DNA from: Gammaproteobacteria bacterium
GTDB taxonomy: Bacteria > Pseudomonadota > Gammaproteobacteria > Steroidobacterales > GCA-2729495
Length of the DNA stretch: 64,000 nucleotides
NCBI GenBank assembly: GCA_024277915.1
Contig: JAJRUG010000009.1
Span: forward strand, 1 to 64,000
Direction: 5' to 3'
Shown here: positions 908 through 37,997 of the stretch, in pieces
How positions within the stretch are numbered: position 1 is the stretch's first letter
How the letters are laid out: the number at the start of each line of letters is the position of its first letter
Made by a program: the position numbers and the translations under genes
Notes under the pieces: model-generated
What the model was told of the DNA's origin: nothing
The model's input: only the letters and a program-made list of their open reading frames with translations
Database searches by the model: none

Positions 908-2392
908 CTAGTCCGCGGCAACGGTACGGTCAGCGGCCCAGGTTCGTAGCGCCTGTACTTTCTCGGCCATGACAACCGATAACGGCCGGGTGCGTTCAAA
1001 CTCCGCAAGAACATGCCGGGTAGCCGGCACTTCGCCCAATGCATTTGCAGCATATAATGCGGCCACCACGCCCTGTTCTATCTCCGCCCCGGAAAACCCG
1101 TCACTGGCAGCGACCAATACCGGTAAGTCGAAACCGGCTGGATCAAGCTCCCGGTTCCGGAAGTGAATCTGCAAAATTGTTGCGCGTACTTTTGGTGAGG
1201 GCAGATCAACAAAAAATATCTCATCGAACCGGCCTTTTCGGATTAGCTCCGGGGGTAGTTGGGTGATATCGTTTGCCGTAGCAACCACAAATACTGACTG
1301 ATCCTTTTCCGCCATCCAGGTCAGGAATGTACCCAGCACACGCCTTGATACATCACTGTCAGATGAACCGGAAGAAATACCCTTTTCGATTTCATCTATC
1401 CACAATACACAGGGACTCATCACTTCTGCCTGCTGCAATGATTCTCTTAGATTACGTTCTGTCTCGCCATGATATTTGTTGTACAGGGTGCCGAAATCCA
1501 GCCTTAGCAACGGAACATTGAAAATCCCTGCTGCAGCTTTTGCTGCCAGACTCTTGCCACAGCCTTGAACACCAATCAGCATTAATCCTTTCGGGGGATC
1601 AAGATGAGTGGAACCGGCATCGTTTCTCATCGGGAGAACGCGGTGTTTCAGCCAGGTTTTCAGATGGTTTAATCCTCCCAGCTCGGAAAACCTGGCAGTC
1701 TCGTACTCGTAGGAAAGGACACCCTGCCGGTTCAGCAACTGGTACTTTGCCTGCATGGCTGCCGGCAGATCCGCCTCACCAATGACCCCATCGCGTACTA
1801 CATTTCTGGCCAGACGTTCCGTATCTGCCCGGGTCAGACCGGAAAGATTCGACACCAGCAGATCGAAAGCGGTTTTGTCCACCTTGACCAACCCTGAATT
1901 CGACTGGTTCCATTCATCCACAGCAGTGGTAACAATCATCGCCCGCTCGTTGTCCCCGGGCAAAGCCATTTCGAAACGAGCCGATAGCTGTTCCAGTTCC
2001 GAAGGCAATGCCAGTTCATGACTCACCAGAATTACGGTTCGAGAGCCGCCAGGCATTCCAAGTGCTATGTCTTTTAACAGCCGTGTATGAACAGGATCTT
2101 CAAGGTAGGGATGAAAATCCAGCAGTACGTAGATGCCCGGTTGCTCTACCGAAAGAATATGCCGCAGTACTTTCCCTGGCTCGGAATTGAGCGGCTGGGG
2201 GGGCATATCAATATCAATGCGCTGAAGGCCGCTGGTAACAACCCACCGGTAAAGCGGCTGATAGCGATCACGTGATGCCGCAGTGACAATACCCTTGAGC
2301 AGCTCAATAAACCGTGTTTCATCATGTGTTTCTACCAGAACTATGGGTAAACGCGATTCAAGAATCACTTTCAGATCATGGCGATTATCCAT
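908..2392 (-). CDS. AAA+ ATPase, Ycf46-like
   Basis: A 494-residue protein. An N-terminal domain of about 230 residues (starting MDNRHDLKVILESRLPIVLV) precedes one AAA+ module. The Walker A motif GVQGCGKS is near residues 274-281. Walker B is CVLWIDEIEKG, and the second region of homology ends RKGRFDEIFFVDLP with the expected arginine. This layout fits the Ycf46 family, named after a chloroplast-encoded protein and widespread in bacteria, whose biochemical role is poorly known. The upstream M28 peptidase gene ends five bases before this start, so the two are probably cotranscribed. The family call is strong; the function is open. Confidence 0.85.
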   Translation of the reverse strand: MDNRHDLKVILESRLPIVLVETHDETRFIELLKGIVTAASRDRYQPLYRWVVTSGLQRIDIDMPPQPLNSEPGKVLRHILSVEQPGIYVLLDFHPYLEDPVHTRLLKDIALGMPGGSRTVILVSHELALPSELEQLSARFEMALPGDNERAMIVTTAVDEWNQSNSGLVKVDKTAFDLLVSNLSGLTRADTERLARNVVRDGVIGEADLPAAMQAKYQLLNRQGVLSYEYETARFSELGGLNHLKTWLKHRVLPMRNDAGSTHLDPPKGLMLIGVQGCGKSLAAKAAAGIFNVPLLRLDFGTLYNKYHGETERNLRESLQQAEVMSPCVLWIDEIEKGISSGSSDSDVSRRVLGTFLTWMAEKDQSVFVVATANDITQLPPELIRKGRFDEIFFVDLPSPKVRATILQIHFRNRELDPAGFDLPVLVAASDGFSGAEIEQGVVAALYAANALGEVPATRHVLAEFERTRPLSVVMAEKVQALRTWAADRTVAAD

Positions 2393-2397
2393 GCGGG

Positions 2398-4098
2398 TTA
2401 TTTTGAAACTTCGGCAATGGCGCGCAGACGTGCCGCCTCAAATTCATCACCCGGATTCCAGACCGGCATCTCATCCGCGTTGGCGATCATCCATCCTGCC
2501 CAGAATCCAAGCAGGGCATCATCGACCATCCCTTCAAATGCCCAGCTATCATCCAGCTCGTCACTGGGCTGATGGTACTTCACTGCCTCGTGGATTTCTA
2601 TCTGCTCTCTCCCCCAGCCCTCCGGCCGCCCGACAAAATCTGTCCCTGATTTGAAGTACAGCGCAGGGACACCAATCTTGGCCAGATTGAATTGATCGGA
2701 GCGGTAGAACGACCCGCGGTGTGGAAACTGATCCTGTTTCAGTACGCGCCCCTGATGTCCGGTCACCGCAAGGGCGACTTTATCAAGAGAAGACTTGCCC
2801 ATACCTATCAGGGTGACATCGCGGGTTTCTCCCCAGATATTTCCGGAATCAAAATTGATATTGGCAGCTATTTTGCCCGGTTCTATTGTCGGGTGACCAG
2901 CGAAATATTCTGAGCCCAGAAGTCCCTGTTCCTCAGCCGCAACAAACAGAAACATCACAGACCGGCGTGGCCTCTCATCGAGTGCGGCAAATGAACTTGC
3001 GATAGCAAGAGCCTGGGAAACACCCACACCATTGTCCCGAGCGCCATTGTAAATGCGATCACCCGTATCATCCGGCTCGCCAATCCCCAAATGATCATAG
3101 TGTGCGGTGTAGATCACCACCTCGTCTTTCAACACCGGGTCGCTGCCTTCCAGAATGCCCAGAACATTGGCAGTTCTCGCCTGGCTCATGCTGTTTTCCA
3201 GAACCAGTGATGTGGTGATACCCAGAGGTACGGGTCGAAAATCACGCTGCTTTGCGGCTGCCAGTAATTCGTCGAGGTTCAGCCCGGACATTTCAACGAG
3301 TTGCCGGGCGGAATCTTCGGTCACCCAACCGGTCAACTGGACGCGTGGTTCACCTTCATCAGGCAACTCGAACTGCACCCCGGTCCACCCGGTCTGGACC
3401 ACCTGCCAGGGGTAACCGGCTGATGCGGCTGTATGGATAATGATTGCCCCTGCAGCACCCTGTCTGGCAGCGCTGGCATACTTGTAGTCCCAACGTCCGT
3501 AGTACAGCCGGGTATCACCGGCAAACAATTCCGGATCCCAGTCCGGGTCGTTGTTAACGATTAACAGCACCTTGCCGGTCAGGCTGTTATCTTCGCCATC
3601 CGGGCTCTTGAAGTCATCCCAGTCATATTCGGGTGCCTGAATAGCATATCCGGCAAATACCAGCTCCGCATCGGTAACGCGGGCCGACTCCTGCTGAACA
3701 CCGCTTGATACCACAAATTGATCCCAGCGATTGAGCACCAGTTGCCTGTCACCTTTGATGAATGACCAGCGCTCCGGCACAGCGGCATTGATACCGATAA
3801 CATCGAATGGTTGCTCCCAGCTGCCATCAGCGGCTGCAGGCTGATAGCCCATTGCCTGCAATTGACCGGTCAGGTAGGTTCGTGTGAGCAACCCGCCGGC
3901 AGAAGCGGTGCCCCTGCCCTCGTAGCGATCAGCCGATAATTCCTGTATCGGGGGGATCAATGCCTGCTTGCTGATCAACGCAGCAACCTCTGCGGCCTGA
4001 CCGGTGAATGGGCCTGTGGATTGGGCGGGATTCTGGCAGCCTGTAATGATCAGGCATCCGGCACACAGGAAAAATTGTAATTTTTTCAGGGCTATCAT
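2398..4098 (-). CDS. M28 family metallopeptidase lipoprotein
   Basis: A 566-residue exported aminopeptidase-type protein. The N-terminus is a lipoprotein signal with lipobox ITGC at about residues 18-21, so the mature enzyme should be membrane-anchored. A PA-like insert (residues about 130-290) comes before the catalytic domain. Zinc-ligand motifs of family M28 are visible in order: AHYDHLGIG, NGARDNGVGV, AAEEQGLLGS, NFDSGNIW, and a late His in VKYHQPSDE. M28 enzymes remove N-terminal residues from peptides using two zinc ions; substrate preference cannot be read here. It is the first gene of a probable two-gene unit with the AAA ATPase and is divergent from the J-domain gene. Confidence 0.92.
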   Translation of the reverse strand: MIALKKLQFFLCAGCLIITGCQNPAQSTGPFTGQAAEVAALISKQALIPPIQELSADRYEGRGTASAGGLLTRTYLTGQLQAMGYQPAAADGSWEQPFDVIGINAAVPERWSFIKGDRQLVLNRWDQFVVSSGVQQESARVTDAELVFAGYAIQAPEYDWDDFKSPDGEDNSLTGKVLLIVNNDPDWDPELFAGDTRLYYGRWDYKYASAARQGAAGAIIIHTAASAGYPWQVVQTGWTGVQFELPDEGEPRVQLTGWVTEDSARQLVEMSGLNLDELLAAAKQRDFRPVPLGITTSLVLENSMSQARTANVLGILEGSDPVLKDEVVIYTAHYDHLGIGEPDDTGDRIYNGARDNGVGVSQALAIASSFAALDERPRRSVMFLFVAAEEQGLLGSEYFAGHPTIEPGKIAANINFDSGNIWGETRDVTLIGMGKSSLDKVALAVTGHQGRVLKQDQFPHRGSFYRSDQFNLAKIGVPALYFKSGTDFVGRPEGWGREQIEIHEAVKYHQPSDELDDSWAFEGMVDDALLGFWAGWMIANADEMPVWNPGDEFEAARLRAIAEVSK

Positions 4099-4202
4099 GG
4101 CGGTGTCCTTGTAATTCTATAGCTCACTGATACCAGACGGTTTGTAGCAATGCAACGCAGTTCCGGTTAAAGAATAGTTTTGCGGCGTACGATAGTGTAG
4201 CC

Positions 4203-4979
4203 ATGAGTCAGAATCAGCCCAGAACTTACTACAATATCCTGCATGTTCTGCCGAATGCGCCGGACGAGATCATTCGTTCCAGCTATAAAACCCTGATGCA
4301 GGCGATGAAAAAACATCCTGACCTGGGAGGAGACCACAGCGAAGCATCCCTGATCAATCAGGCCTATGCCACTCTGTCGAATCCTGAAAAACGCTCGCAA
4401 TATGACCTGAAGCTCCAGAATGAGGCGCATATTGATCGCAAGATAGCCAGGAAAAAAGCCCCTGATCGTGCCCGGAGCCAGGTAAACCCTGCTGCAGAAA
4501 TCAGTCTGTATGCTACCGCGATATTCACGAAGGAAGATATCTGTCCATTTTGCAAGGCGCTACATGGTCGACATGGAATCGAACCGGACAGTATCTGCAG
4601 GGACTGTGAGGCACCTTTGTTCCGGGTACAGCAGAAGACTGATGATGCGATAGCCCAGGCAAACCCGGACTGGCAACGGGCAATCGAGCGTATCCCCAGC
4701 GATAAAACAATCAGTTTTTGTTCTCAGTGGCCCCAGCCATTGCCACATACCGGCCGACTGATGGATATCTCGCTTAGTGGCATGAGGTTTGCCACAGATA
4801 CTGCCATTGTGAAGAATCAGCTGTTAAAAATAAGCAGTCACCTTGGGAACTCGGTTGCAAAAGTTGTTTATTGCGAGAAAGACATCAATGAATCACGACC
4901 CAGATGGCTGGTCGGAGTAGAATTTCTCACCTTGCAATTCCAGCGTTCACGAGGCGCTTTTATTTCCACAAAAGCCTAG
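4203..4979 (+). CDS. J-domain / zinc-motif / PilZ fusion protein
   Basis: A 258-residue protein with three parts. Residues 8-72 form a J-domain with the HPD tripeptide at 38-40, which stimulates DnaK ATPase in known J-proteins. Residues 114-136 hold two CxxC pairs (CPFC and CRDC) likely to bind zinc. Residues about 155-250 form a PilZ domain with both c-di-GMP-binding motifs: RAIER at 159-163 (RxxxR) and DISLSG at 188-193 (D/NxSxxG). The visible motifs suggest a cytosolic co-chaperone whose activity or target choice responds to c-di-GMP; that coupling is inferred. It is divergent from the M28 gene and convergent with the DUF2189 gene. Confidence 0.88.
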   Translation: MSQNQPRTYYNILHVLPNAPDEIIRSSYKTLMQAMKKHPDLGGDHSEASLINQAYATLSNPEKRSQYDLKLQNEAHIDRKIARKKAPDRARSQVNPAAEISLYATAIFTKEDICPFCKALHGRHGIEPDSICRDCEAPLFRVQQKTDDAIAQANPDWQRAIERIPSDKTISFCSQWPQPLPHTGRLMDISLSGMRFATDTAIVKNQLLKISSHLGNSVAKVVYCEKDINESRPRWLVGVEFLTLQFQRSRGAFISTKA

Positions 4980-4999
4980 CGGTTCACCTGGCAGGCTCT

Positions 5000-5821
5000 T
5001 TAATCTTCCCCGGGTCTTGCTGTTGAAGTAACCCCTTCTTTGTGCCGGGGAAACTCACTGGCATCAATCGTCTCAAGATAGCCGTGCCAGGTAGCAAAAC
5101 CAATCACTGGCAGTGTAATCACAAAACCTAACATCGCAGTGGCAAACCCCACCACTACCGCCAGCAGGATCAACAGGCTCCAAACCAGCATCGCCAGCTT
5201 ATTACGCAATACTGCATTAATACTTGAGACAACTGCCGTCACCGCATCAACATCCCGGTGCACAATCATTGGCAGGGAAAAGGCACTGATCATAAACGTG
5301 ATGCCGGCAAATACAGCCCCCACCGCCGAACCAATACCCAGAAAGGTGACGATGGCCCGCCAGTTCTGCTGAAATTCAATTGGAAAGAAAATATGCACCA
5401 TGGATGCTGCCCGCGCCCAAACCAGGAACAACACGAGCAGGATCAGTGCGAAGATCATCACATTGCCGATGTGCCGCTTTTCTGCGCGCAATGTCCGGCG
5501 AAGAGAGGTTTTTTGTTGCCTCTCCAGTGCTGCACTGATGGAGTAAAGCCCGATGGCCAGAACCGGGCCGAGAAAAACAAACCCGGACAAAACGCCCAGC
5601 AGAAGACCATAGTTTCCCATCTGGTAGGCCAGCAGGCTGATCAGCCAGCTAAGCAGGCACATCAAAACCCCGTAGGTAATGCTCTCCGGCCAGGCTCGCC
5701 GCATATCTGCCCAGCCAAGGCGCAACCAGCCAACAGGTGCAAAAGGAGCGAGCTGGCGACATGGGGCGACAAACGGAACTGCAGCCGCTTTGTCGGTGTC
5801 GTCACCGTGTTTTTCTACCAT
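5000..5821 (-). CDS. DUF2189 family integral membrane protein
   Basis: A 273-residue protein with a polar N-terminal stretch of about 35 residues followed by about six hydrophobic segments (for example YGVLMCLLSWLISLLAYQMG and LAMLVWSLLILLAVVVGFAT). The motif around GWLRLGWADMRRAWPESITYG and the length fit the DUF2189 family of predicted inner-membrane proteins, often seen near cytochrome oxidase genes. No such neighbours are present here. Function is unknown. It lies upstream of the broken ABC exporter's 3' end with an 80-base gap, in the same orientation. Confidence 0.75.
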   Translation of the reverse strand: MVEKHGDDTDKAAAVPFVAPCRQLAPFAPVGWLRLGWADMRRAWPESITYGVLMCLLSWLISLLAYQMGNYGLLLGVLSGFVFLGPVLAIGLYSISAALERQQKTSLRRTLRAEKRHIGNVMIFALILLVLFLVWARAASMVHIFFPIEFQQNWRAIVTFLGIGSAVGAVFAGITFMISAFSLPMIVHRDVDAVTAVVSSINAVLRNKLAMLVWSLLILLAVVVGFATAMLGFVITLPVIGFATWHGYLETIDASEFPRHKEGVTSTARPGED

Positions 5822-5901
5822 GGTATCCCCGCCACTATAGAAGCCGGCTGATCATAGCCACCGTCAGGGGGATCGTGCAAGTTCAGGTCTATGGTGCCGG
5901 T

Positions 5902-7659
5902 CTACATATCTTCATAGCCTTCCCCGAACTGCAATTCTGCCAGACGCGCATAAAGAGGGGTTCGGCGCACGATTTCTTCATGCCTGCCAACATCCACAAT
6001 CCGGCCATGGTCCATCACAACAATTCGATCAGCTTTAAGCACAGTCGCCAGCCGATGGGCAATAATGATTGTAGTGCGGTTTTTCATCAGCCCTTCCAGC
6101 GCTACCTGCACAGCACGTTCACTTTCCGCGTCCAGCGAACTGGTCGCCTCATCCAGCAGCAATATCGGAGGATCCTTCAGAATTGCGCGTGCCAGGGCCA
6201 TACGTTGTTTCTGTCCGCCGGAAAGCCGGGAACCCCGTTCGCCGAGAAACGTATCATAGCCATCGGGCAATCGGCTGATAAACTCATCCGCCGCTGCCGC
6301 CCGGGCTGCCTCTTCGATTTGTGAATCACTGGCGGCCGGATTGCCAAACCGAATATTCTCGCGTGCAGATGCGCCAAATATCGTTGTCTCCTGTGGCACC
6401 AGCCCGATACGACGGCGAACATCTTCCGGGCGTGCTGTTGCGATATTCACACCGTCTATTCTTATAGTTCCCGATAGAGGGTCATAGAAACGCAGCAATA
6501 GCTGGAAAGCTGTCGATTTTCCAGCACCAGACGGGCCTACAAACGCGATTGTTTACCCAGGTGCAATATCAAGACTGAAATTCTTGATCGCCGCATCATC
6601 AGGTCGGGAGGGATAAGAAAAGCAAACCTGTTCAAACCGGATCGAGCCGGCACCCGGCTCAGGCATATCAACCGGAGTACTAACGGCTTTTATTTGCGGC
6701 TCGGCATCAAGCAACTCCATCAGGCGTTCCGCTGCTCCCGCCGCTCTTTGCACTTCTCCCCACATCTCGCTCAGGGAAGCAGCGCCCGTCGCTACAAACA
6801 TTGCATAAAGAACGAACTGACCCAGTTGTCCGGCAGACATGTCCCCGGCGAGTACTTCATGAGCACCGAATCTCAATACAACGATCAACGCAGTGAACAG
6901 CAACAGAATAGCCGCCGCAGTCATCAGCGCCCGGACACGAATTCTGCTTATAGAGGTAGTAAATGCTTCCTTTACAGCAACGGCAAATCGTCGGGATTGC
7001 TGGTCTTCCGATGTAAACGCCTGGATAATTTCTACCGCATTCAGCGTCTCGCCCGCCATCCCGCTGCTATCTGCGATGCGGTCCTGGCTCGCTCTGGACA
7101 GCACCCTGACACGACGGCCGATCAGAATAATCGGGACAAGAACCAGCGGCACCAGCACGATGATCATCCCGGTCAGCCTCGGACTGGTGATCATCAGCAT
7201 TATCAGGCCACCTGCCAGTTGCAGCGATGATCGCAGGGCAATGGAAATCCCTACACCGGAAATTGACTGTATGAGAGTGGTATCCGTAGTCAGCCTGGAA
7301 AGCACTTCTCCGGTTTTGGTCACTTCAAAGAAGGCCGGATCCATACGAATAATGTGGCTGAAAACCGCATTGCGAATATCAGCAACCACTCGCTCTCCAA
7401 GCCAGCTGACAAAGTAGAACCGCAGTGAGGAGAAAGTGCCGAATAACACCGTTGCCCCAAGCAGCCAGAGGAAATACCGGTCGATCGTGGCACCATCCTG
7501 CCCCGCCATTCCAACATCTATGACATAGCGAACGGCAACAGGCAGTGCCAACAGCGCACCGGATGCTATAATCAGCGCCAGCATCGCAATGACCAGTGTG
7601 CCAGTATAGGGTCGGATGAAAGAGACCAGTGCCCGCAGCGGACCGAATGATCGATTCAC
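5902..7659 (-). pseudogene. ABC exporter (MsbA-related) with one in-frame TAA
   Basis: The full frame spans 585 codons and would encode a half-size exporter: six transmembrane helices (residues about 15-310) then an ATPase domain. All ATPase motifs are present: Walker [10 protein letters not shown], signature [14 protein letters not shown], Walker [13 protein letters not shown], and the H-loop IIAHRLATV. At codon 369 (6553-6555) there is a TAA where relatives carry Glu in the motif PG-E-T-(I/V)-A, just before Walker A. Sequence on both sides is in the same frame with no other damage, so a single GAA-to-TAA change explains it. It may be a real nonsense mutation or a sequence error. If real, the product loses its ATPase. 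The start is GTG at 7659. Confidence 0.88.
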
Positions 7660-7811
7660 AGGGATCGACTCACGGGCTGTGCGCCATCAGATTTACCCGG
7701 CATGACTGCCCGGTATATTGTTCAGGTGAAGTATTTGAACTCATAAGTGCTCATGATCACATTTTCAGAGCCACAGAGCATCTCCAATATTCCTGCCGGC
7801 AGGAGTACGGG

Positions 7812-8585
7812 ATGATGTTGAATGTCCCCGGCCACCGTGAACTGCGGAAGATTGTTGTGCTTAACCCCAAAGGCGGATCAGGAAAAACCACACTGGCGAT
7901 TAACCTGGCGGGTTATCTCGCATCCCGGCAACGCCCCGTTGCATTAATGGACTGTGACCCGCAGGGATCATCAACCCGGTGGCTGGAAAAACGTCCCTCA
8001 CACTATCCTGCCATTCACGGTATCGTCGCCTATACAACCAGCATGGTCACGACGCGAAGCTGGCAACTGCGGGTTCCACATGATATCCGCTATCTTGTTA
8101 TTGACACACCCGCAGCAGTGCCTGCACAGGAGCTGGTGGATTTTACCCGGGGCGCTCACGCCATCCTGGTGCCGGTACTACCGTCAAACATTGATGTACA
8201 CGCCGTCTCAAGACTGGTTGCCCATCTGTTGCTGACAGCGAAAGTCAGCCGTCGTATGGGTCGGCTGGGCGTCATCGCAAACCGGGTCAGAGAAAACACC
8301 CTGGCTTACAGAAAATTGATGTTATTTCTGGACTGCCTTTCTATCCCGGTTGTCGGTGTTCTTAGAGACAGCCAGAACTATGTCCGTTCGGCCGAGGAAG
8401 GCCTGTCTATCCATGAAATGGTGCCCTCGAGAGTCACCAAGGATCTGACCCGCTGGCAGCCTTTGATAGGCTGGCTGGAACAAAAGCTGGAAACCTCGCT
8501 CACGGCCCGCGATCTGCATCACCCGATACTTCAGCCTCTCCCCGGTCCGGTGGTACCATTCAGAAAAGCGCGGATCAAACCATAG
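7812..8585 (+). CDS. ParA/MinD-like P-loop ATPase
   Basis: A 257-residue ParA-family ATPase. The deviant Walker A is at the N-terminus (KGGSGKTT near residues 20-27). The Walker A' motif is MDCDPQGSSTRW and the later motif is LVIDTPAAVPAQ. I chose ATG 7812 because AGGAGT lies just upstream and the earlier part of the open frame has no family similarity. ATG 7815 is an alternative. ParA proteins use ATP-dependent dimerisation on DNA or membranes to position cargo. No ParB or parS-like partner is adjacent. The stop codon shares one base with the nnrS start, so translation is probably coupled. Confidence 0.9.
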   Translation: MMLNVPGHRELRKIVVLNPKGGSGKTTLAINLAGYLASRQRPVALMDCDPQGSSTRWLEKRPSHYPAIHGIVAYTTSMVTTRSWQLRVPHDIRYLVIDTPAAVPAQELVDFTRGAHAILVPVLPSNIDVHAVSRLVAHLLLTAKVSRRMGRLGVIANRVRENTLAYRKLMLFLDCLSIPVVGVLRDSQNYVRSAEEGLSIHEMVPSRVTKDLTRWQPLIGWLEQKLETSLTARDLHHPILQPLPGPVVPFRKARIKP

Positions 8586-9766
8586 TGGCCGGAGCACCCT
8601 GGACTATTCTGAATTTCGCGTTCAGACCATTTTTTCTGCTTGGCAGTCTGTTCGCTGTACTGGCGATGACCATCTGGATTGCCGCACAGCATGGAATCTC
8701 ATGGTGGACGCTGCCGGCTGACATCACATCATGGCATGCCCATGAAATGCTGCTGGGGTTCGCAGGCGCGGCAGTTGGCGGCTTCATTCTGACGGCAGTC
8801 GCTACCTGGACGGGACGCCCGCCGGTTCAGGGACCTTTGTTAGGGATATTGGTCGTCACATGGTTTGCCGGACGTCTGGCAATGAGCCTGTCCGGACTAT
8901 TGCCTGCAATCACTGTTGCGGTAACAGACCTGTCCTTCCCGGTGTTGCTGACGATTCTGGCGGGGCGCGAGATCATTGGCGGTGCCAGCAAGCGCAATTA
9001 CCAGATCGTAGTTCTTTTGGGACTGATCACATGCGCGAACGTTTTATACCATCTGGCGCCACTTGGGATTGATGCGATATCAGATCGCGCGCCTCTATAC
9101 CTGCTACTACATCTGTTCCTGATCCTGATCACCGTGATGGGTGGCCGGATCATTCCGGCATTTTCCGGCAACTGGCTACGGGCAAAGGGATCAACGACAA
9201 CACCGCACATATCCCCTGCAATCGAATCCCTGATCATTCCGGTCACCGCCGCTGCTGGAATTGCAGACAGTTTTTGGCCGGCAACACCTGTCACCGGAAT
9301 CCTGCTGATGATGACCGCCACAATCCATGGCCTGCGCCTGGCTCGCTGGAAAACACGGGCGGTTCTCAGTGAGCCCTTGCTGGCTGTACTGCACATTGCC
9401 TATCTGTGGTTTGTATTCGGATATGCCTTACTCGGCTTGAGCTCACTCGGAGCAGTGTTCCCACGAACACTGGCCATTCATGCGCTCGCCATGGGAGGCA
9501 TTGGTGGAATGATTGTTGCCATCGGAACAAGGGTCGGCCTCGCCCACACCGGCAGAGCACTGCATGTCGCGCGTTTAACAATCCTGAGCTATCTGATATT
9601 GGGACTGGCTGTAGTCATGAGGGTATTCGGCCCACTGACCGATGCGGATAGCCTGCTAATACTGGATATTTCCGCCTTTGGCTGGATAACGGCATTCGTG
9701 CTGTTTGCATGGGTTTACTGGCCAATGCTCTGCACACCGAGAGTAGACGGGCAACCTGAACGGTAG
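8585..9766 (+). CDS. NnrS family haem-copper membrane protein
   Basis: A 393-residue, very hydrophobic protein with about twelve predicted membrane helices. It starts at a GTG overlapping the ParA stop by one base. Family motifs include FRPFFLLGSLFA near the N-terminus and ITSWHAHEMLLGFAGAAVGG, whose His residues are likely metal or haem ligands. Later, GGRIIPAFSGNW and AIHALAMGGIGGMI also match NnrS. NnrS proteins bind haem and copper and are linked in several bacteria to tolerance of nitric oxide. No NO reductase or NnrR gene is seen nearby, so the NO link is from family knowledge only. Confidence 0.93.
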   Translation: MAGAPWTILNFAFRPFFLLGSLFAVLAMTIWIAAQHGISWWTLPADITSWHAHEMLLGFAGAAVGGFILTAVATWTGRPPVQGPLLGILVVTWFAGRLAMSLSGLLPAITVAVTDLSFPVLLTILAGREIIGGASKRNYQIVVLLGLITCANVLYHLAPLGIDAISDRAPLYLLLHLFLILITVMGGRIIPAFSGNWLRAKGSTTTPHISPAIESLIIPVTAAAGIADSFWPATPVTGILLMMTATIHGLRLARWKTRAVLSEPLLAVLHIAYLWFVFGYALLGLSSLGAVFPRTLAIHALAMGGIGGMIVAIGTRVGLAHTGRALHVARLTILSYLILGLAVVMRVFGPLTDADSLLILDISAFGWITAFVLFAWVYWPMLCTPRVDGQPER

Positions 9767-9851
9767 CTGTGATCACCAAGACTTGATATCACCATCAGCG
9801 CCGGAGCGCAGCATCATCCCCCCCCGATACCGAAACCTCGCGACAAACCAA

Positions 9852-9938
9852 GGCATCGCCTGTCTGATCTCTTTTTGAAGGAAATAAAGCGGACCGCAGG
9901 GAGCCATTCCGTCAAAAAGAGACCGGACAGGCGATGCC
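9852..9938 (+). repeat. Long hairpin element, copy B
   Basis: The arms at 9852-9878 and 9912-9938 pair over 27 bases with two imperfect positions. The shared core GCGGACCGCAGGGAGCCAT lies in the loop region. Flanks match copy D in inverted orientation: CCAATCGT-type sequence on one side, and CCCGATACCGAAACC then CAAACCAAGG on the other. Arm bases 9855-9860 (ATCGCC) pair with 9930-9935. The same place in copy D is CTGTTC with GAACAG, a compensated change. It lies between the convergent nnrS and RND genes (249-base gap, no gene seen). Confidence 0.88.
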
Positions 9939-10015
9939 GGACGATTGGCACGACGATTCAACCAGTATAGGTGGTTCAATCCCGAGGATAGGCGCCGGTA
10001 GCGAAACACCTGCTC

Positions 10016-12532
10016 CTACGATATCGGTCGTAACCATCTCAACAACAGCGGCAACAGGGTCAGATTGGCAACCAGTGCGATCAACATGGAAAATCCGGTG
10101 AATAGCCCGAAGTAGATAGTCGGGATAAAGCTGGAAAGCGACAGCATCGAAAAGCCTGCAATGATAATAACCGATGTGTAGTAAATGGCGCGACCAATAC
10201 TTTTATGGCACCGCTCAATGGCTGCAAGATAGCTCCGGTCTTTCGAAAACTCATCAATGAACCGGTGAACATAGTGAATCGAATGATCGACACCTATACC
10301 AATGCTGATAGCAGCGATCGTGATGGTCATAACATCGAGCGGTATGGACAAAAGGCCCATCATGCCCAGCACTGACCCGGCGGCCAGCATACTTGGAACG
10401 ATTGCGATAAAAGCAATTCTGACAGACCGAAACAAAGTAACGAACATCAGCATGATCGCAACAAACACGACCCCGATGGTCAATATCTGTGATCGAAACA
10501 GGCTTTGCAGTACGTTGTTGTAGAGAACCAGCATTCCCGTCAGGTGAATTCTTTCATCGGCGATTCCGAACTCTGATACGAGTTGCTGGCGAATCTTCTG
10601 CAGCAGCTCGGCGCGCCGGAGCGTCAGATCAGACTCAAAGATTCGTACGGAGAACCGCATCTGGTTGCCATCTTCGGACATATACGGAGAAAACATCACC
10701 TTTTTGATGCCCTCTGGAAGTCGCTGATACAAAAGAGACAGGAAAAATGTACTCGGCTCTTCGTCATCGTTGAGAACCTGCAGGGTTTTTAAGGTTGTAG
10801 CCATGGATAAAACCTTGCCTGTCTCCGGCAAACTTTCCAGATACTCGTGTATCTCATGCACCTGTCCGAGACGATAGGTGTTATACCAGTAACTGCTCGA
10901 GCCAAGATCACCTTCATCTGCAAATTCATCTGCAAATTCGTCCCCGAATTCATCAGCGAACTCATCATCAACCGTCCCGGATGTGCCCTGGGCATCCGCA
11001 GCACGAGCAGCAAGAAACTCCGGATCCGCATCAATAATCACGTCGAAAGGAGTGGTGCCACCCAGTTTTTCATCGATCGTGATCATACCCTGATAGATCT
11101 CGGTCGATTCCTTGAAATAATCGATGAACCGGTTTTCGACGGTCAGCGTTGAAATACCCCAGGCACTGATCAGCCCCAGTGCCAAAAACAATCCTGCCGT
11201 CAATTTCCCGAAGTGCTCAATAAAGCGGGCAAAATAATTCGTGATCCGGCCGGTAAAGTCCCTTCGTTCATGAGGCAACCCGGCGGGCAACAACATCAGG
11301 CCCAGAGGAAACAGGGTAAATGCCAGCACAAATATAACCAGCATGCCAATCACCATCATCCAGCCAAAATCGATCACCGGACGGATCCCGCTTACCAGCA
11401 AAGAGCCAAATCCAACCATCGTGGTGGCAGTCGTATACAGGCATGGACGCAATTTATCCCGTACCGTGCTACTCACCAGCCAAAACTGATCTCTGCCGGG
11501 GTTTAGCGCATGAAGTTCCCGATAGCGCACGACCAGGTGAACCGTGATGGAAAGACTGAAAATCAGCAGTAATGCGACAAAATTGGCCGATACGACCGTC
11601 ACAGGCCAATCGATTATGCCAAGCGCTCCCATCATCACCACTACGGCGAGCGTACAGCACAACAAAGGCAGAACCACCCATCGTGGTCGGCGAAAAATCA
11701 GTGCCAGCAACAATACAAGAAAGACCAGAATGCCGGCGCCGAACACTGTGACATCATGTTTGATATAGGAAACCATGTCGGAAACAATCAACGGCAAGCC
11801 GCCCAGGTGGATTTCCGCTGCAGAACGATGGGGGTCCAGTATCGTACGGATTGTGGCGATATCAGCCTGCTGCGCTGTGGTTCTGATCACACGCTGATCC
11901 CTGATCTGGTGACCCAGATCCTCCAGCTCCGCAGTTTCAACGACCGAGAGACCCGAAAAAAGATCCTGCTCTCTCAACTGTGCGCGCCGGGAAACCAGCG
12001 TACGGTATTGCGGATCTTCACGAAACGTCAGCAAGAGCATGGTTGTTAGACCATCCCTGCTCATGATCAGGTCGCTGTAAAGCGCGCTTTGTGTCAGCTC
12101 GATGCGTGCCAGGGCTACATCGGTTCGGTCACTGAGCAGTGTCGGTACTTCCTTTTGCAGCTCCCGGAATGACGTCCTTGGACTGTTCACCAACGGTACA
12201 TCAAGAATGGTAATAACAGATTCGACATTCGCCAGGCCCGCAAGCTTGTCCCTTAGCACCTGAATATCTTTCAGGCTTTCAGGCGCAAACAGATCCTCTG
12301 TGGTCGTATAGGTAATCAGCAGATAGTCATCGGATCCATAACGTGCCCGTGTTCCCCGGTAGTAACGGAGATCCTGATCATTCTCGAGCAGCAAGGTATC
12401 AGCGGAAGCATCCAGTTTGAATTCAGTTGCGTGCCAGGCGAAAAAACCGGCTACCGCAACCAAAACCACCAATGCTGCAAAAGCGTGTCCAAGAACCAGG
12501 CGTTCGTAGACATCCATCAGGTATTTTTTCAT
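10016..12532 (-). CDS. RND superfamily (MMPL-type) exporter
   Basis: An 838-residue membrane protein with two repeated halves. Each half has one leading helix, a large periplasmic loop, and a cluster of about five helices (first cluster near FGAGILVFLVLLLALIFRR; second near ILTIGVVFVAIMLMFVTLF). The motif GIGVDHSIHYVHRF in the second half is typical of the RND/MMPL and sterol-sensing-like group. Such proteins export lipids, hopanoids or other hydrophobic cargo using the proton gradient; the cargo is unknown. The second periplasmic loop contains an odd acidic run of DEFADEF-like repeats (about 10911-10972). ATG 12532 is chosen; GTG 12538 is possible. No membrane-fusion partner is adjacent. Confidence 0.85.
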   Translation of the reverse strand: MKKYLMDVYERLVLGHAFAALVVLVAVAGFFAWHATEFKLDASADTLLLENDQDLRYYRGTRARYGSDDYLLITYTTTEDLFAPESLKDIQVLRDKLAGLANVESVITILDVPLVNSPRTSFRELQKEVPTLLSDRTDVALARIELTQSALYSDLIMSRDGLTTMLLLTFREDPQYRTLVSRRAQLREQDLFSGLSVVETAELEDLGHQIRDQRVIRTTAQQADIATIRTILDPHRSAAEIHLGGLPLIVSDMVSYIKHDVTVFGAGILVFLVLLLALIFRRPRWVVLPLLCCTLAVVVMMGALGIIDWPVTVVSANFVALLLIFSLSITVHLVVRYRELHALNPGRDQFWLVSSTVRDKLRPCLYTTATTMVGFGSLLVSGIRPVIDFGWMMVIGMLVIFVLAFTLFPLGLMLLPAGLPHERRDFTGRITNYFARFIEHFGKLTAGLFLALGLISAWGISTLTVENRFIDYFKESTEIYQGMITIDEKLGGTTPFDVIIDADPEFLAARAADAQGTSGTVDDEFADEFGDEFADEFADEGDLGSSSYWYNTYRLGQVHEIHEYLESLPETGKVLSMATTLKTLQVLNDDEEPSTFFLSLLYQRLPEGIKKVMFSPYMSEDGNQMRFSVRIFESDLTLRRAELLQKIRQQLVSEFGIADERIHLTGMLVLYNNVLQSLFRSQILTIGVVFVAIMLMFVTLFRSVRIAFIAIVPSMLAAGSVLGMMGLLSIPLDVMTITIAAISIGIGVDHSIHYVHRFIDEFSKDRSYLAAIERCHKSIGRAIYYTSVIIIAGFSMLSLSSFIPTIYFGLFTGFSMLIALVANLTLLPLLLRWLRPIS

Positions 12533-13876: not shown

Positions 13877-16270
13877 ATGCACAGCTTGCGCTTCAAAATT
13901 CTGGCGGGTGTTGCCGTAATCGTATTGTTAACGCAGGCCGGCACGATTGGAACTGTGTTAGTCACCGCGAACGAGGAAGTATCTGTACGAACGGAAAAAG
14001 AACTCACAACCGGTGCTGAGCTATTCGAGCGACTGATGAATGTTCGTGCCACCCGGCTGAAAAACTTTCTTCGGGCTGCATCAGCTGACCCCGGGCTGGT
14101 AGCCGCTATAGAGTCGCAGGACACAATGCTGATCAGCAAACTGCTGGCCATACACGGGAAGCGCGTGGGTGCTGATCGGGCACTGGTGCTTGACCATGCC
14201 GGCCAGGTCGTCGCCACTACCAATACCATCGCCCGGGATCTACCGGGCATGCTCGAATTAATCGATTACACCGAAGCGGACGGGATGGCTCGCTCGGTAG
14301 TTTCGTCCGGCGACCAGTCGTGGGAAATGCTTACCGTCCCCATTAAGTCACCCGAGCATCTTCTGTGGTTATCGATGGGGTTTCTCATCAGTGATGAACT
14401 GGCACAATCAATGGCGACCTATACCGGGCTCAACATTGCACTGGCTCTTCGCGAAGGCAATTCTGTTCGTGTGCTTGGGAGCTCATTACATGTTGCAGAT
14501 GAAGCACTGGCGAAAGGGCTTGCCGATCTGAACCGGCCCGCCCGATCCAGCAAATCAGAATCGATGAGTATCGGTGACATCCGGTCTCTTGCGCTGGAAA
14601 TACCATACTTGTATGCCTCCAGTGGCGTTAGTGTAGTGCTGCACAAATCAATGTTTGCAGCAATGGCGCCCTACCGTGCTCATCGAAATGTAATGATTTC
14701 ACTTGGTTTGTTCATGCTGGGCATTGCATTCTGCGGAGCGCTGGTACTTTCCACGAAAGTGACGCAACGATTAAGAAAACTGATTAACGCGGCACAAACA
14801 ATAAGCGTTGGCGACTACGGTGCTCCAATCAATATCAGCGGGAAAGGTGAGCTGGCCGAACTGGCCAAAGCCTTCAATGCCATGCAGCAGATACTCGCTG
14901 AGCGGGAAGAACATATCACTTACCAGGCACAGTTTGATGTACTCACCGGTCTCCCCAACCGCATTCTGGGAATGCAGCGGCTGACGGAGATCATCGACAA
15001 TGCACAGAACACACAGGAACCGGTCAGCATCCTGATTATTGATCTCGACAGTTTCGACGATATCGGTTCCTCGCTGGGCCATGAGTTCGGTGATGCCCTG
15101 CTATGCCAGGCTGCCGAGCGGTTACGTGCTGGCCTGGAATCAGAACATACACTGGCCAGGCTGGAAGCCGACAATTTCCTGGTCGTTATGAAAGATACCA
15201 ATATTGAAGCGGCCGAACTGGCTGCCAATGAGTTACTCCGCAGCATCGAAGGGGGGCTCGGCGTCCGAAACGTCAATATCAGTCTCGATGCAAGCATCGG
15301 TATCAGCGCTTTCCCTGATCACGGAAAAATCCCTGATCAGCTGGTGCTCCGGGCAACAGTTGCAAAAAATGATGCCAAGCAAGCCCAGGACGGAATTCAC
15401 CGGTATGAGGAAGGCCAGGAAACCTGCCATCTGCGTCAGCTGACTATTCTCGGGGATCTGCGCCGGGCAGTAAACGGTGACGAGTTGAAACTATTCCTGC
15501 AACCCAAAATTCACCTTGGTATCGGCGTTGTCTGCGGTGCAGAAGCGCTGGTTCGCTGGGATCACCCGGTACTCGGGTTTTTGCCTCCCGGTGAATTCAT
15601 ACCCATTGCCGAGAAGTCCGGGAATATCTCCTTGATCACCCACTGGGCTCTGGCTGCTTCGATCCGGGAATGTCGACTTTGGCAGGAGGAAGGCATCAAC
15701 CTTCCTGTTTCAGTCAACTTGTCCGGTAGGGACCTGCTGGATCGCAATCTGCCCTGTCTAATTCTTGAGCTACTTCGTGATCACGACCTGGATCCTCATA
15801 AGCTGATTCTGGAAATCACCGAGGAAGCACTGGTCAGCGACCTTTCTCACGCCAAACTGGTGCTGGAATGCTTGCGGGAAATCGGGATTAAAGTATCTAT
15901 TGACGATTTCGGCACAGGTTATTCATCACTGGCTCAAATCAAGAACCTGCCGGCCGATGAAGTCAAAATTGATCGATCGTTCATCATGGATCTGCCGGGC
16001 AACCGGGCTGATGTGGCAATTGTTCGCGCCTCAGTCGAGCTGGGACATAGTCTTGGTCTTGAGGTGCTTGCTGAGGGTGTTGAAACACAAGAAGCCCTGG
16101 ACTGGCTGACTGCACAGGGATGCGAACGCGCTCAGGGGTATCTGATTGCCCGGCCAATGCCAGCTGAAAGCTTCCCTGCCTGGGTCAAACAATACAAGGC
16201 TTCACAGATCGAGGCTGCAGATACAAACGGTGTGACATTCCTGCACCCGGCGATCAAACCCGCCAGCTGA
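13877..16270 (+). CDS. Membrane sensor with degenerate GGDEF and intact EAL domain
   Basis: A 797-residue protein. Helix 1 (about residues 8-28) and helix 2 (about 270-295) flank a periplasmic sensor region, then a HAMP-like linker (297-340), a GGDEF domain (355-510) and an EAL domain (530-780). The cyclase motif GGDEF is replaced by EADNF near residue 429, so cyclase activity should be lost. The EAL domain keeps its catalytic signature: EALVRW near 555, DDFGTGYSSL near 675, KIDRSFI near 696 and AEGVET near 731. It therefore likely degrades c-di-GMP in response to a periplasmic signal. The PilZ fusion at 4203-4979 could be a c-di-GMP reader in the same cell. Confidence 0.92.
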   Translation: MHSLRFKILAGVAVIVLLTQAGTIGTVLVTANEEVSVRTEKELTTGAELFERLMNVRATRLKNFLRAASADPGLVAAIESQDTMLISKLLAIHGKRVGADRALVLDHAGQVVATTNTIARDLPGMLELIDYTEADGMARSVVSSGDQSWEMLTVPIKSPEHLLWLSMGFLISDELAQSMATYTGLNIALALREGNSVRVLGSSLHVADEALAKGLADLNRPARSSKSESMSIGDIRSLALEIPYLYASSGVSVVLHKSMFAAMAPYRAHRNVMISLGLFMLGIAFCGALVLSTKVTQRLRKLINAAQTISVGDYGAPINISGKGELAELAKAFNAMQQILAEREEHITYQAQFDVLTGLPNRILGMQRLTEIIDNAQNTQEPVSILIIDLDSFDDIGSSLGHEFGDALLCQAAERLRAGLESEHTLARLEADNFLVVMKDTNIEAAELAANELLRSIEGGLGVRNVNISLDASIGISAFPDHGKIPDQLVLRATVAKNDAKQAQDGIHRYEEGQETCHLRQLTILGDLRRAVNGDELKLFLQPKIHLGIGVVCGAEALVRWDHPVLGFLPPGEFIPIAEKSGNISLITHWALAASIRECRLWQEEGINLPVSVNLSGRDLLDRNLPCLILELLRDHDLDPHKLILEITEEALVSDLSHAKLVLECLREIGIKVSIDDFGTGYSSLAQIKNLPADEVKIDRSFIMDLPGNRADVAIVRASVELGHSLGLEVLAEGVETQEALDWLTAQGCERAQGYLIARPMPAESFPAWVKQYKASQIEAADTNGVTFLHPAIKPAS

Positions 16271-37169: not shown

Positions 37170-37997
37170 CTATCTCATACCGCGATGCTGCTTGATCAGG
37201 TCGTAAGCTGAGCGAATCTCGCGGGTACGCTGCTTGGCAATCTCCATCATCGAATCCGGCAGCCCCCGGGCCAGCTGTTTATCCGGGTGATGCTGGTTCA
37301 TCAGTCGTCTGTATGCAGTCTTGACATCCTTGTCAGGTGCTGCGGGGGCAACGCCCAGAGCCTTATAGGCTTCATCGAGAGAATTATCACGCCGGGCTGT
37401 TGAGCGCCGCTGCCCGCTGAAGTTACGGCGTGCCAGCAACACGGCTTCCAGTTGCGCGAGCTCAACACGGCCGACGCCCAAATGACCAGCGATTCGCCAT
37501 AATAGCTCGCGCTCACTTGTGTTGATGGCGCCCTTGCTCAGGGCAAGATCCATCTGAATCTCAAGAAAGGTTCTGATCAACCCTGGCTGACCACGACAGG
37601 CTTGCCGAAAACGGGTGATCCGGGCATCTATATCAAAATTACTGTTCTTGCCTTTGCTGAACAATGCAATCGCATGCTGAACCTCCTCGGGGCGCAACCG
37701 CATCTGGTGCATCACGCTACGCGCCGCCCGGATCTCTTCCTCGGAAACGCGCCCGTCGGCTTTCGCCAGATGTCCCATCACCAGAAAACTGGTCTCAAAG
37801 AATATCTGCTGCAAACTGCTTCCGGACAGATTATCGAACCCGGTTCCGTCTCCGGCACGCCATCCGCGTGACGCCAGACTGCGATCAAACTGGTGGCCCC
37901 ATGCAACACCTATCATCGCACCGAGCACACCCAGCCCCAATGGCCCGAGTACTGCAGCACCAAGCAATCCGCCCCCCAGTTTTCCTATCCAGGCCAT
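37170..37997 (-). CDS. djlA: DjlA-type membrane J-domain co-chaperone
   Basis: A 275-residue protein with the DjlA layout. A Gly-rich N-terminal membrane segment (LGGGLLGAAVLGPLGLGVLG) is followed by a TerB-like helical domain (MGHLAKADGRVSEEEIRAAR). The C-terminal J-domain has HPD in NQHHPDKQLARGLP. Known DjlA anchors DnaK activity at the inner membrane and is linked to envelope stress signalling. It lies 21 bases upstream of rpe on the same strand. Confidence 0.93.
   Translation of the reverse strand: MAWIGKLGGGLLGAAVLGPLGLGVLGAMIGVAWGHQFDRSLASRGWRAGDGTGFDNLSGSSLQQIFFETSFLVMGHLAKADGRVSEEEIRAARSVMHQMRLRPEEVQHAIALFSKGKNSNFDIDARITRFRQACRGQPGLIRTFLEIQMDLALSKGAINTSERELLWRIAGHLGVGRVELAQLEAVLLARRNFSGQRRSTARRDNSLDEAYKALGVAPAAPDKDVKTAYRRLMNQHHPDKQLARGLPDSMMEIAKQRTREIRSAYDLIKQHRGMR

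Follow-up and report, generated by a model that had tools for sequence, protein, structure and literature searches.

A flagella-associated protein family joining a J-domain, a zinc ribbon and a PilZ domain: a candidate DnaK co-chaperone under c-di-GMP control

Results

The locus and its product

The window, i.e. the whole stretch of DNA analysed here, comprises 64,000 nucleotides of contig JAJRUG010000009.1 from a gammaproteobacterium of the order Steroidobacterales. Close to its left end lies a gene whose predicted product carries a J-domain, a zinc ribbon and a PilZ domain in a single chain. An earlier note on this DNA had stated that the HPD motif, two CxxC pairs and both PilZ ligand motifs are intact, and this holds in every part: the ORF occupies exactly 4203-4979 (+), with HPD at residues 38-40, the first ligand motif at R159/R163 and the second at D188/S190/G193. 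The features of the locus are the following.

4168..4195 (+): FliA (sigma-28)-like promoter, TAAAG...CGATAG, 9/12 consensus positions, spacing 16, beginning 35 bp upstream of the start codon
4203..4979 (+): J-domain, zinc ribbon, PilZ protein, ORF of 258 aa
4224..4406 (+): J-domain, residues 8-68; Pfam DnaJ 48 bits (cut-off 27.8), fold match 5nro_B
4314..4322 (+): HPD motif, residues 38-40; kept in 49/53 proteins of the order survey
4542..4607 (+): C4 zinc ribbon, C114, C117, C132 and C135; cysteines in 53/53, zinc presumed
4665..4943 (+): PilZ domain, six-stranded barrel, residues 155-247; Pfam PilZ, models and PDB matches
4677..4691 (+): RxxxR ligand motif, R159 and R163; in 51/53, R159 aligned with YcgR residue 114
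4764..4781 (+): DxSxxG ligand motif, D188, S190 and G193; [D/N]xSxxG in 49/53
4944..4976 (+): C-terminal tail of the RSRGxFxSxxA type beyond the barrel; conserved, G251 in 79/80 and F253 in 71/80 sequences

The two CxxC pairs (C114-x2-C117 and C132-x2-C135) lie between the J-domain and PilZ and make up a single C4 ribbon; DnaJ, by contrast, has four CxxCxGxG repeats. Pfam scans up to E 10 gave no match to DnaJ_C or to the YcgR N-terminal domain, a Pfam scan of the same chain gave none to HSP70, and no NCBIfam model exceeded its cut-off (TIGR02349 reached 37.6 bits against a cut-off of 377.2). Judged by its predicted architecture the protein is a class C (J-only) J-domain protein. The Pfam PilZ match covers residues 178-245 with 24.9 bits, barely above the cut-off of 22.5, and begins at profile position 22, so that RxxxR (R159, R163) falls just beyond the aligned part. 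For the zinc-PilZ half, three NCBIfam models each matched 1/51 members at E 0.01, and a profile of this half found nothing significant among PDB sequences, the best being the eS27 zinc ribbon at E 0.39. The tail at 4944-4976, with its near-invariant G251 and F253, follows the PilZ barrel in the window protein and in its relatives alike; it is possibly a docking motif.

Upstream lies a divergent M28 peptidase gene and downstream a convergent gene for a DUF2189 protein, and the gene therefore probably forms its own transcription unit. A likely c-di-GMP phosphodiesterase, which the earlier note had also placed in the window, is found at 13877-16270 (+): its predicted dCache_3-HAMP-GGDEF-EAL architecture, its EALVR motif and the degeneration of its GGDEF to EADNF make this activity likely. 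Since it lies about 9 kb off with other genes intervening, it shares no operon with the J-PilZ gene, and its proximity has no bearing on the cellular role of the J-PilZ protein. A second J-protein of the window, at 37170-37997 (-), combines TerB with a C-terminal J-domain in a DjlA-like architecture.

Predicted structure

An AlphaFold2 model built on 80 sequences had a mean pLDDT of 85 and a pTM of 0.60, with the last five residues poorly ordered; the domains are therefore predicted confidently, their mutual arrangement is not. The best Foldseek matches in the PDB were PilZ and J-domains, with E < 0.001 for only one of them. By VIA-align, J-domains were matched at Z of about 8-10 (for the DnaK-bound J-domain 5nro_B, Z was 9.5 and rmsd 1.4 over 59). 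Matches to c-di-GMP PilZ proteins had Z of about 8-9 (5y6f at Z 8.2, rmsd 2.0; 5vx6 at Z 9.1, rmsd 1.6). Modelled alone, the zinc-PilZ half reached a pTM of 0.80. Its top 30 structure matches, PilZ proteins as far as could be judged, cover mostly the PilZ part, and the fold of the zinc ribbon is barely covered by them. In the first aligned pair of the modelled structure, R159 falls on residue 114 of YcgR and on residue 136 of VCA0042, the latter (R136) presumably a ligand residue. In YcgR, R114 and R118 constitute RxxxR and R114 is a c-di-GMP ligand arginine, according to an excerpt of PMC7288161.

Spread of the family and conservation of its motifs

A species-wide scan yielded 202 stretches with tblastn E <= 1e-3, the best 80 of which were retained. 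That the domain order recurs in other genomes, a point which the earlier note had left to a survey, is borne out by these best 80 of 202 loci, which match the query from residue 9 or before to residue 244 or beyond. Their record titles span eight phyla, including Acidobacteriota, Nitrospirota and Myxococcota, and Legionella waltersii ATCC 51914 is one named cultured strain among them; at E 0.01, Pfam DnaJ matches 80/80 and PilZ 68/80 of the aligned members. Only 2/398 Pseudomonadota genomes in a survey of the phylum, the window's own among them, reached E 1e-22, and the family is thus sparse though widespread. One locus, L107 (CAMATU010000208.1), is titled as a Klebsiella pneumoniae MAG; its title or binning is doubtful because the tree groups it with betaproteobacterial-type rows.

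Within the window's order, a sample of 196 genomes was surveyed, of which 158 are GGDEF-positive and 38 are not. A profile of the zinc-PilZ half found 56/196 genomes, the same set as the holders of the whole protein (G017 only as a fragment), and the only copies in which no J-like domain accompanies this half are damaged or truncated by a contig end (G005, G013, G017); the copy of G012 is frame-broken. In the order sample, the J-domain and the zinc-PilZ half belong together. All 56 holders are GGDEF-positive, with none among the 38 other genomes (Fisher 7e-7 for 55 holders without G017, a value that ignores relatedness); outside the window's GTDB family, 27/118 GGDEF-positive genomes hold the gene versus 0/38, with p 2e-4, which likewise ignores relatedness. 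In the window's genome there are 14 GGDEF matches, five PilZ stretches in four frames, and one full-length plus one partial HSP70 match. In its GTDB family, 29/40 genomes of the order sample are holders, with 5/29 copies damaged, altered or cut by a contig end.

The PilZ ligand motifs, which the earlier note had called intact, are more than chance matches: of the 104 well-filled columns of residues 150-258 in an alignment of 80 sequences, those of the five ligand residues take ranks 1, 2, 3, 5 and 6 in conservation, for which chance gives about 7e-8 if columns are assumed to be interchangeable. An alignment of 21 chosen members, 35-73% identical to the window protein, has HPD, the four cysteines, R159, R163, D188, S190 and G193 invariant; the invariance of RxxxR is limited to these 21 because the omitted G021 copy (L016), a near-duplicate of that of G008, carries Q at R159. 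The species-wide counts of 86/86 for RxxxR and 85/85 for HPD (one row being a fragment) are biased as regards HPD: HPDLGG-type patterns had served as seeds of the scan, which retained just its best 80 of 202 stretches.

The order survey is the fairer motif count. Its candidates were gathered by a whole-protein profile, and 59 rows were reduced to 53 proteins by dropping G297 (outside the order), G000b (a paralogue) and the broken or cut copies of G005, G012, G013 and G017; the 53 include the window protein and the second copy of G144, which a contig end truncates. The four cysteines are kept in all 53, RxxxR in 51, HPD in 49 and [D/N]xSxxG in 49. HPD is lost in four of the 53 (G131, G136, G151, G181), all from FliG-positive genomes and all with both PilZ motifs kept. 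The PilZ-motif exceptions are G021 with Q for R159, G075, where parts of both motifs are gone, and G051, G064 and G085 with T for S.

Several relatives depart from the single J-domain plan. Tandem-J members (L027/L032, L028/L033, L029/L034 and L187-L190) have a first J-domain with HPD and a second without, followed by the zinc ribbon and PilZ. The paralogue in the window's genome (L031 = G000:C147:5582-6253, minus strand), cut by a contig end, has the zinc ribbon, both PilZ motifs and an HPD-less J-like remnant. In L179, L181 and L183, from the single genus of G136, G151 and G181, DPD or HPG stands in place of HPD, RxxxR and DxSxxG are intact and FliG is present; this genus offers natural HPD-less variants for comparison.

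FliA-type promoters

FliA promoters have the consensus TAAA-N14..16-GCCGATAA, and ycgR is under FliA control. Twelve consensus positions were scored in the 200 bp upstream of start codons assigned in the analysis. The site in the window matches 9/12; on its own it is only suggestive, because scores of at least 9 are also seen in 101/579 control regions. Sites of at least 10/12 precede 26/76 family genes versus 22/579 control regions of the same loci, 2/76 on the opposite strand and 1.5% of shuffles, and those of at least 11/12 precede 14/76 family genes versus 5/579 control regions. Fifteen of the 26 sites begin 32-41 bp before the start. When the genes were collapsed at 50% identity, a site was found in 15/37 clusters, with a member-weighted 13.1 versus 1.4 expected. 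Flagellin genes, one from every genome in a set of 12 of those with family genes, served as a positive control and scored 9-11, with 10/12 genes at 10 or above and that of the window's genome at 11. In the window's own family just 1/18 scored genes reaches 10/12, the window gene itself standing at 9.

Association with flagella

The flagellar lead arose post hoc, first from flagellin as a marker and then corrected with FliG. Among the GGDEF-positive genomes of the order, FliG is present in 47/56 holders versus 42/102 non-holders, and shuffling within GTDB families, which is not a full phylogenetic model, gives p 5e-6. The association is seen without the window's family (26/27 versus 40/91, p 2.5e-5), in that family alone (21/29 versus 2/11, p 0.003) and in the larger, more complete genomes outside it (21/22 versus 33/68, p 3e-4). 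Nine of the 56 holders lack FliG, one of which, G035, has flagellin and is counted by it among the flagellated holders below. FliG was found in 46/50 further holder genomes picked from the species-wide set of 80 loci and was missing from 4/50, some of the 50 possibly being species that are also in the order survey; of the 20 among these 50 that are titled outside Pseudomonadota or unclassified, 18 have it. In Acidobacteriota, the counts are 9/9 holders versus 83/291 others (p 2e-5), where the 291 are 297 genomes (FliG in 89) less six holders, may still include holders of the family, and contain about ten weak FliG matches. Type IV pili were also considered and set aside, since PilM_2 matches 179/196 genomes as well as control genomes and does not discriminate.

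Among the holders of the window's family, FliG and flagellin are both missing from G005 (in whose copy no J-domain was found), G008, G012 (with a broken frame), G013, G017, G021 and G033. After removal of G013, whose copy ends with the contig, damaged or altered copies are found in 4/6 flagella-less holders of this family versus 0/22 flagellated ones (p 7e-4); G017 lacks the J-domain and DxSxxG, and G021 carries R159Q. A general rule that loss of HPD or of ligand motifs follows loss of flagella was dropped, as FliG revealed flagellar genes in G075, G136, G151 and G181. Because the altered members checked outside the window's family thus have FliG, decay of the copy without flagella is local to this family, and it is a post hoc observation.

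Gene neighbourhood

No conserved neighbourhood or general synteny was found around the family genes, and no flagellar one outside a Halieaceae-type clade. The immediate neighbours comprised 131 listed genes (those of at least 750 aa left off), 113 of which were scanned; they are longest-ORF calls and some may be false. An operon-based function was abandoned, the commonest neighbour families being only alpha/beta hydrolases (5), MatE (3) and FliK (3). In the Halieaceae-type clade the J-PilZ gene follows a FliK-family gene (by Pfam in L043 and L044, by similarity in L100), genes homologous to motA, motB or both are located no more than about 6 kb away in L043, L100 and L111, and a PilZ gene is present in L043 and L100. 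No fliK was found in L111, and the contig of L044 ends early. As this is a single clade, its context counts as one event. Around the J-PilZ gene of L043, positions 1479-11083 hold two MotA/MotB-type sets, PilZ, a SPOR-domain protein, FliK and a downstream 7TMR-DISM GGDEF gene, a compact motility and c-di-GMP region.

Discussion

The best reading of this protein is that of a YcgR carrying a J-domain, i.e. a c-di-GMP receptor that would recruit DnaK to a flagellar client. Its likeness to YcgR, the flagellar brake of E. coli, and to MotI/DgrA of B. subtilis lies in the c-di-GMP-type PilZ fold, with R159 on R114 of YcgR, and in the link to flagella. Unlike YcgR, it has a J-domain and a zinc ribbon in place of the N-terminal domain, and its likely output would therefore be DnaK. 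With DnaJ and CbpA-type proteins it shares a J-domain with HPD and a matching fold, but as a class C protein it has neither the CxxCxGxG repeats nor a DnaJ_C match. We lean towards the view that it is a class C co-chaperone of DnaK, controlled by c-di-GMP and working for the flagellar programme, a view in which we infer the ligand binding, the stimulation of DnaK and the client.

Such a protein could work as follows. FliA would read the gene in many lineages, as the promoter-like sites in about one-third of the loci suggest, so that the protein would be made in flagellated cells. Rising c-di-GMP would then be bound by PilZ through R159/R163 and D188/S190/G193, as their conservation and the predicted fold suggest. 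Binding might shift the module of zinc ribbon, PilZ and tail such that it takes hold of a flagellar client or, alternatively, sets the J-domain free. The HPD loop would in turn stimulate DnaK and the client, for example a stator or export part, would be remodelled, unloaded or cleared at the change from swimming to settling. In its most specific form, which we put forward tentatively and would not yet back over its alternatives, this would be a family of the flagellar regulon whose members are Hsp70 co-chaperones gated directly by a second messenger: when c-di-GMP goes up, the module would seize a part of the motor or of the export apparatus, the J-domain would direct DnaK against that part, and the flagellum would be silenced or dismantled as the cell becomes sessile. 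Several points speak against the flagellar view, besides its post hoc origin. Strong FliA-type sites are rare in the window's own family, no flagellar neighbourhood is conserved apart from the Halieaceae-type clade, and 9/56 and 4/50 holder genomes are without FliG. HPD is lost in 4/53 proteins, all from FliG-positive genomes, and in the paralogue of the window's own, flagellated genome. M. xanthus has a DnaJ-bearing PilZ protein, which may or may not be of this family, despite its lack of flagella, and in its CsdK2 client binding persisted when the c-di-GMP motif was changed (PMC10313047).

Flagella could instead be a mere correlate of the motile-sessile change, the protein being a c-di-GMP-gated J-protein of general proteostasis or with another output such as polysaccharide or the cell cycle. 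The fact that there is mostly no conserved operon, the 9/56 holders without FliG and the PilZ-DnaK chaperones of M. xanthus, which serve heat stress and cell death in the part of PMC10313047 that describes them, would all fit this. However, the FliG association survives both within GTDB families and among GGDEF-positive genomes, and the FliA-type promoters and the Halieaceae context likewise point to flagella, such that we consider the proteostasis explanation rather unlikely. Less probable still, the J-domain could be mainly a docking or folding module; the zinc-PilZ half would then bind a flagellar or nucleic-acid target in a c-di-GMP-dependent manner that does not require DnaK. HPD is indeed lost with RxxxR kept in G131, G136, G151 and G181 and in the paralogue of the window's genome, and the second copy in two-J members is HPD-less, but HPD is kept in 49/53 proteins, a J-domain match is present in 80/80 of the best 80 of 202 members and the zinc-PilZ half hardly ever occurs without J. 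That the PilZ domain is purely structural and has lost c-di-GMP binding is highly improbable: the Pfam score barely above the cut-off and the M. xanthus protein PlpA, reported in an excerpt of PMC8316039 as non-binding despite intact motifs, would allow it, but conservation in the zinc-PilZ half peaks at the ligand residues and, in the order sample, all holders are GGDEF-positive genomes.

Myxococcus xanthus, where PilZ and the Hsp70 machine are known to meet, has no flagella. The earlier note had proposed that the protein would tie DnaK recruitment to c-di-GMP, a link that it called rarely described; conserved residues and the predicted fold favour the link itself, while its rarity needs qualifying, since it is not wholly undescribed: excerpts of two papers deal with PilZ-DnaK proteins (PMC10313047) and with PilZ proteins bearing DnaK or DnaJ (PMC8316039) in this species. 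On a role in the cell the earlier note had been silent; the present results point to flagella. The two PilZ-DnaK chaperones, CsdK1 and CsdK2, act in heat stress and cell death, and a change of the c-di-GMP motif of CsdK2 did not stop client binding, as far as the text excerpted from PMC10313047 goes. They resemble the protein described here in joining PilZ and the Hsp70 machine in one chain, but, on the same excerpt, PilZ sits on DnaK itself in CsdK1/CsdK2 and here on a co-chaperone, with a zinc ribbon, the reversed order and a flagellar association. The relevant passages of PMC8316039 list four PilZ proteins bearing a DnaK or DnaJ domain, and report from a screen of 24 mutants defects only for plpA, pixA and pixB (motility) and for pkn1 and pixB (development). 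With the DnaJ-bearing PilZ protein or proteins of M. xanthus, compared by this listing alone, the likeness is one of the domain-name pair (PMC8316039). No description of the J-zinc-PilZ family was found in a search of openly licensed PMC papers. Both modules are already known; what is new in the literature searched is the fixed three-part architecture and its association with flagella.

In E. coli, DnaK, DnaJ and GrpE regulate flagella positively according to excerpts of PMC2782266, a 1992 report, known by its title as cited there, found them to be needed for flagellum synthesis, and dnaJ mutants are without flagella (PMC10055731). The present family is a conserved candidate for aiming DnaK at flagella, with HPD, RxxxR and DxSxxG as the residues to mutate, the zinc ribbon and the conserved tail as the likely client-binding parts, and FliA-type promoter sequences upstream of a share of its genes. 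If this is true, the outputs known for PilZ receptors would gain a chaperone branch, and a J-protein would be switched by a nucleotide second messenger. In this way cells may bring their protein-folding machinery to bear on the apparatus for swimming as they change between swimming and settling.
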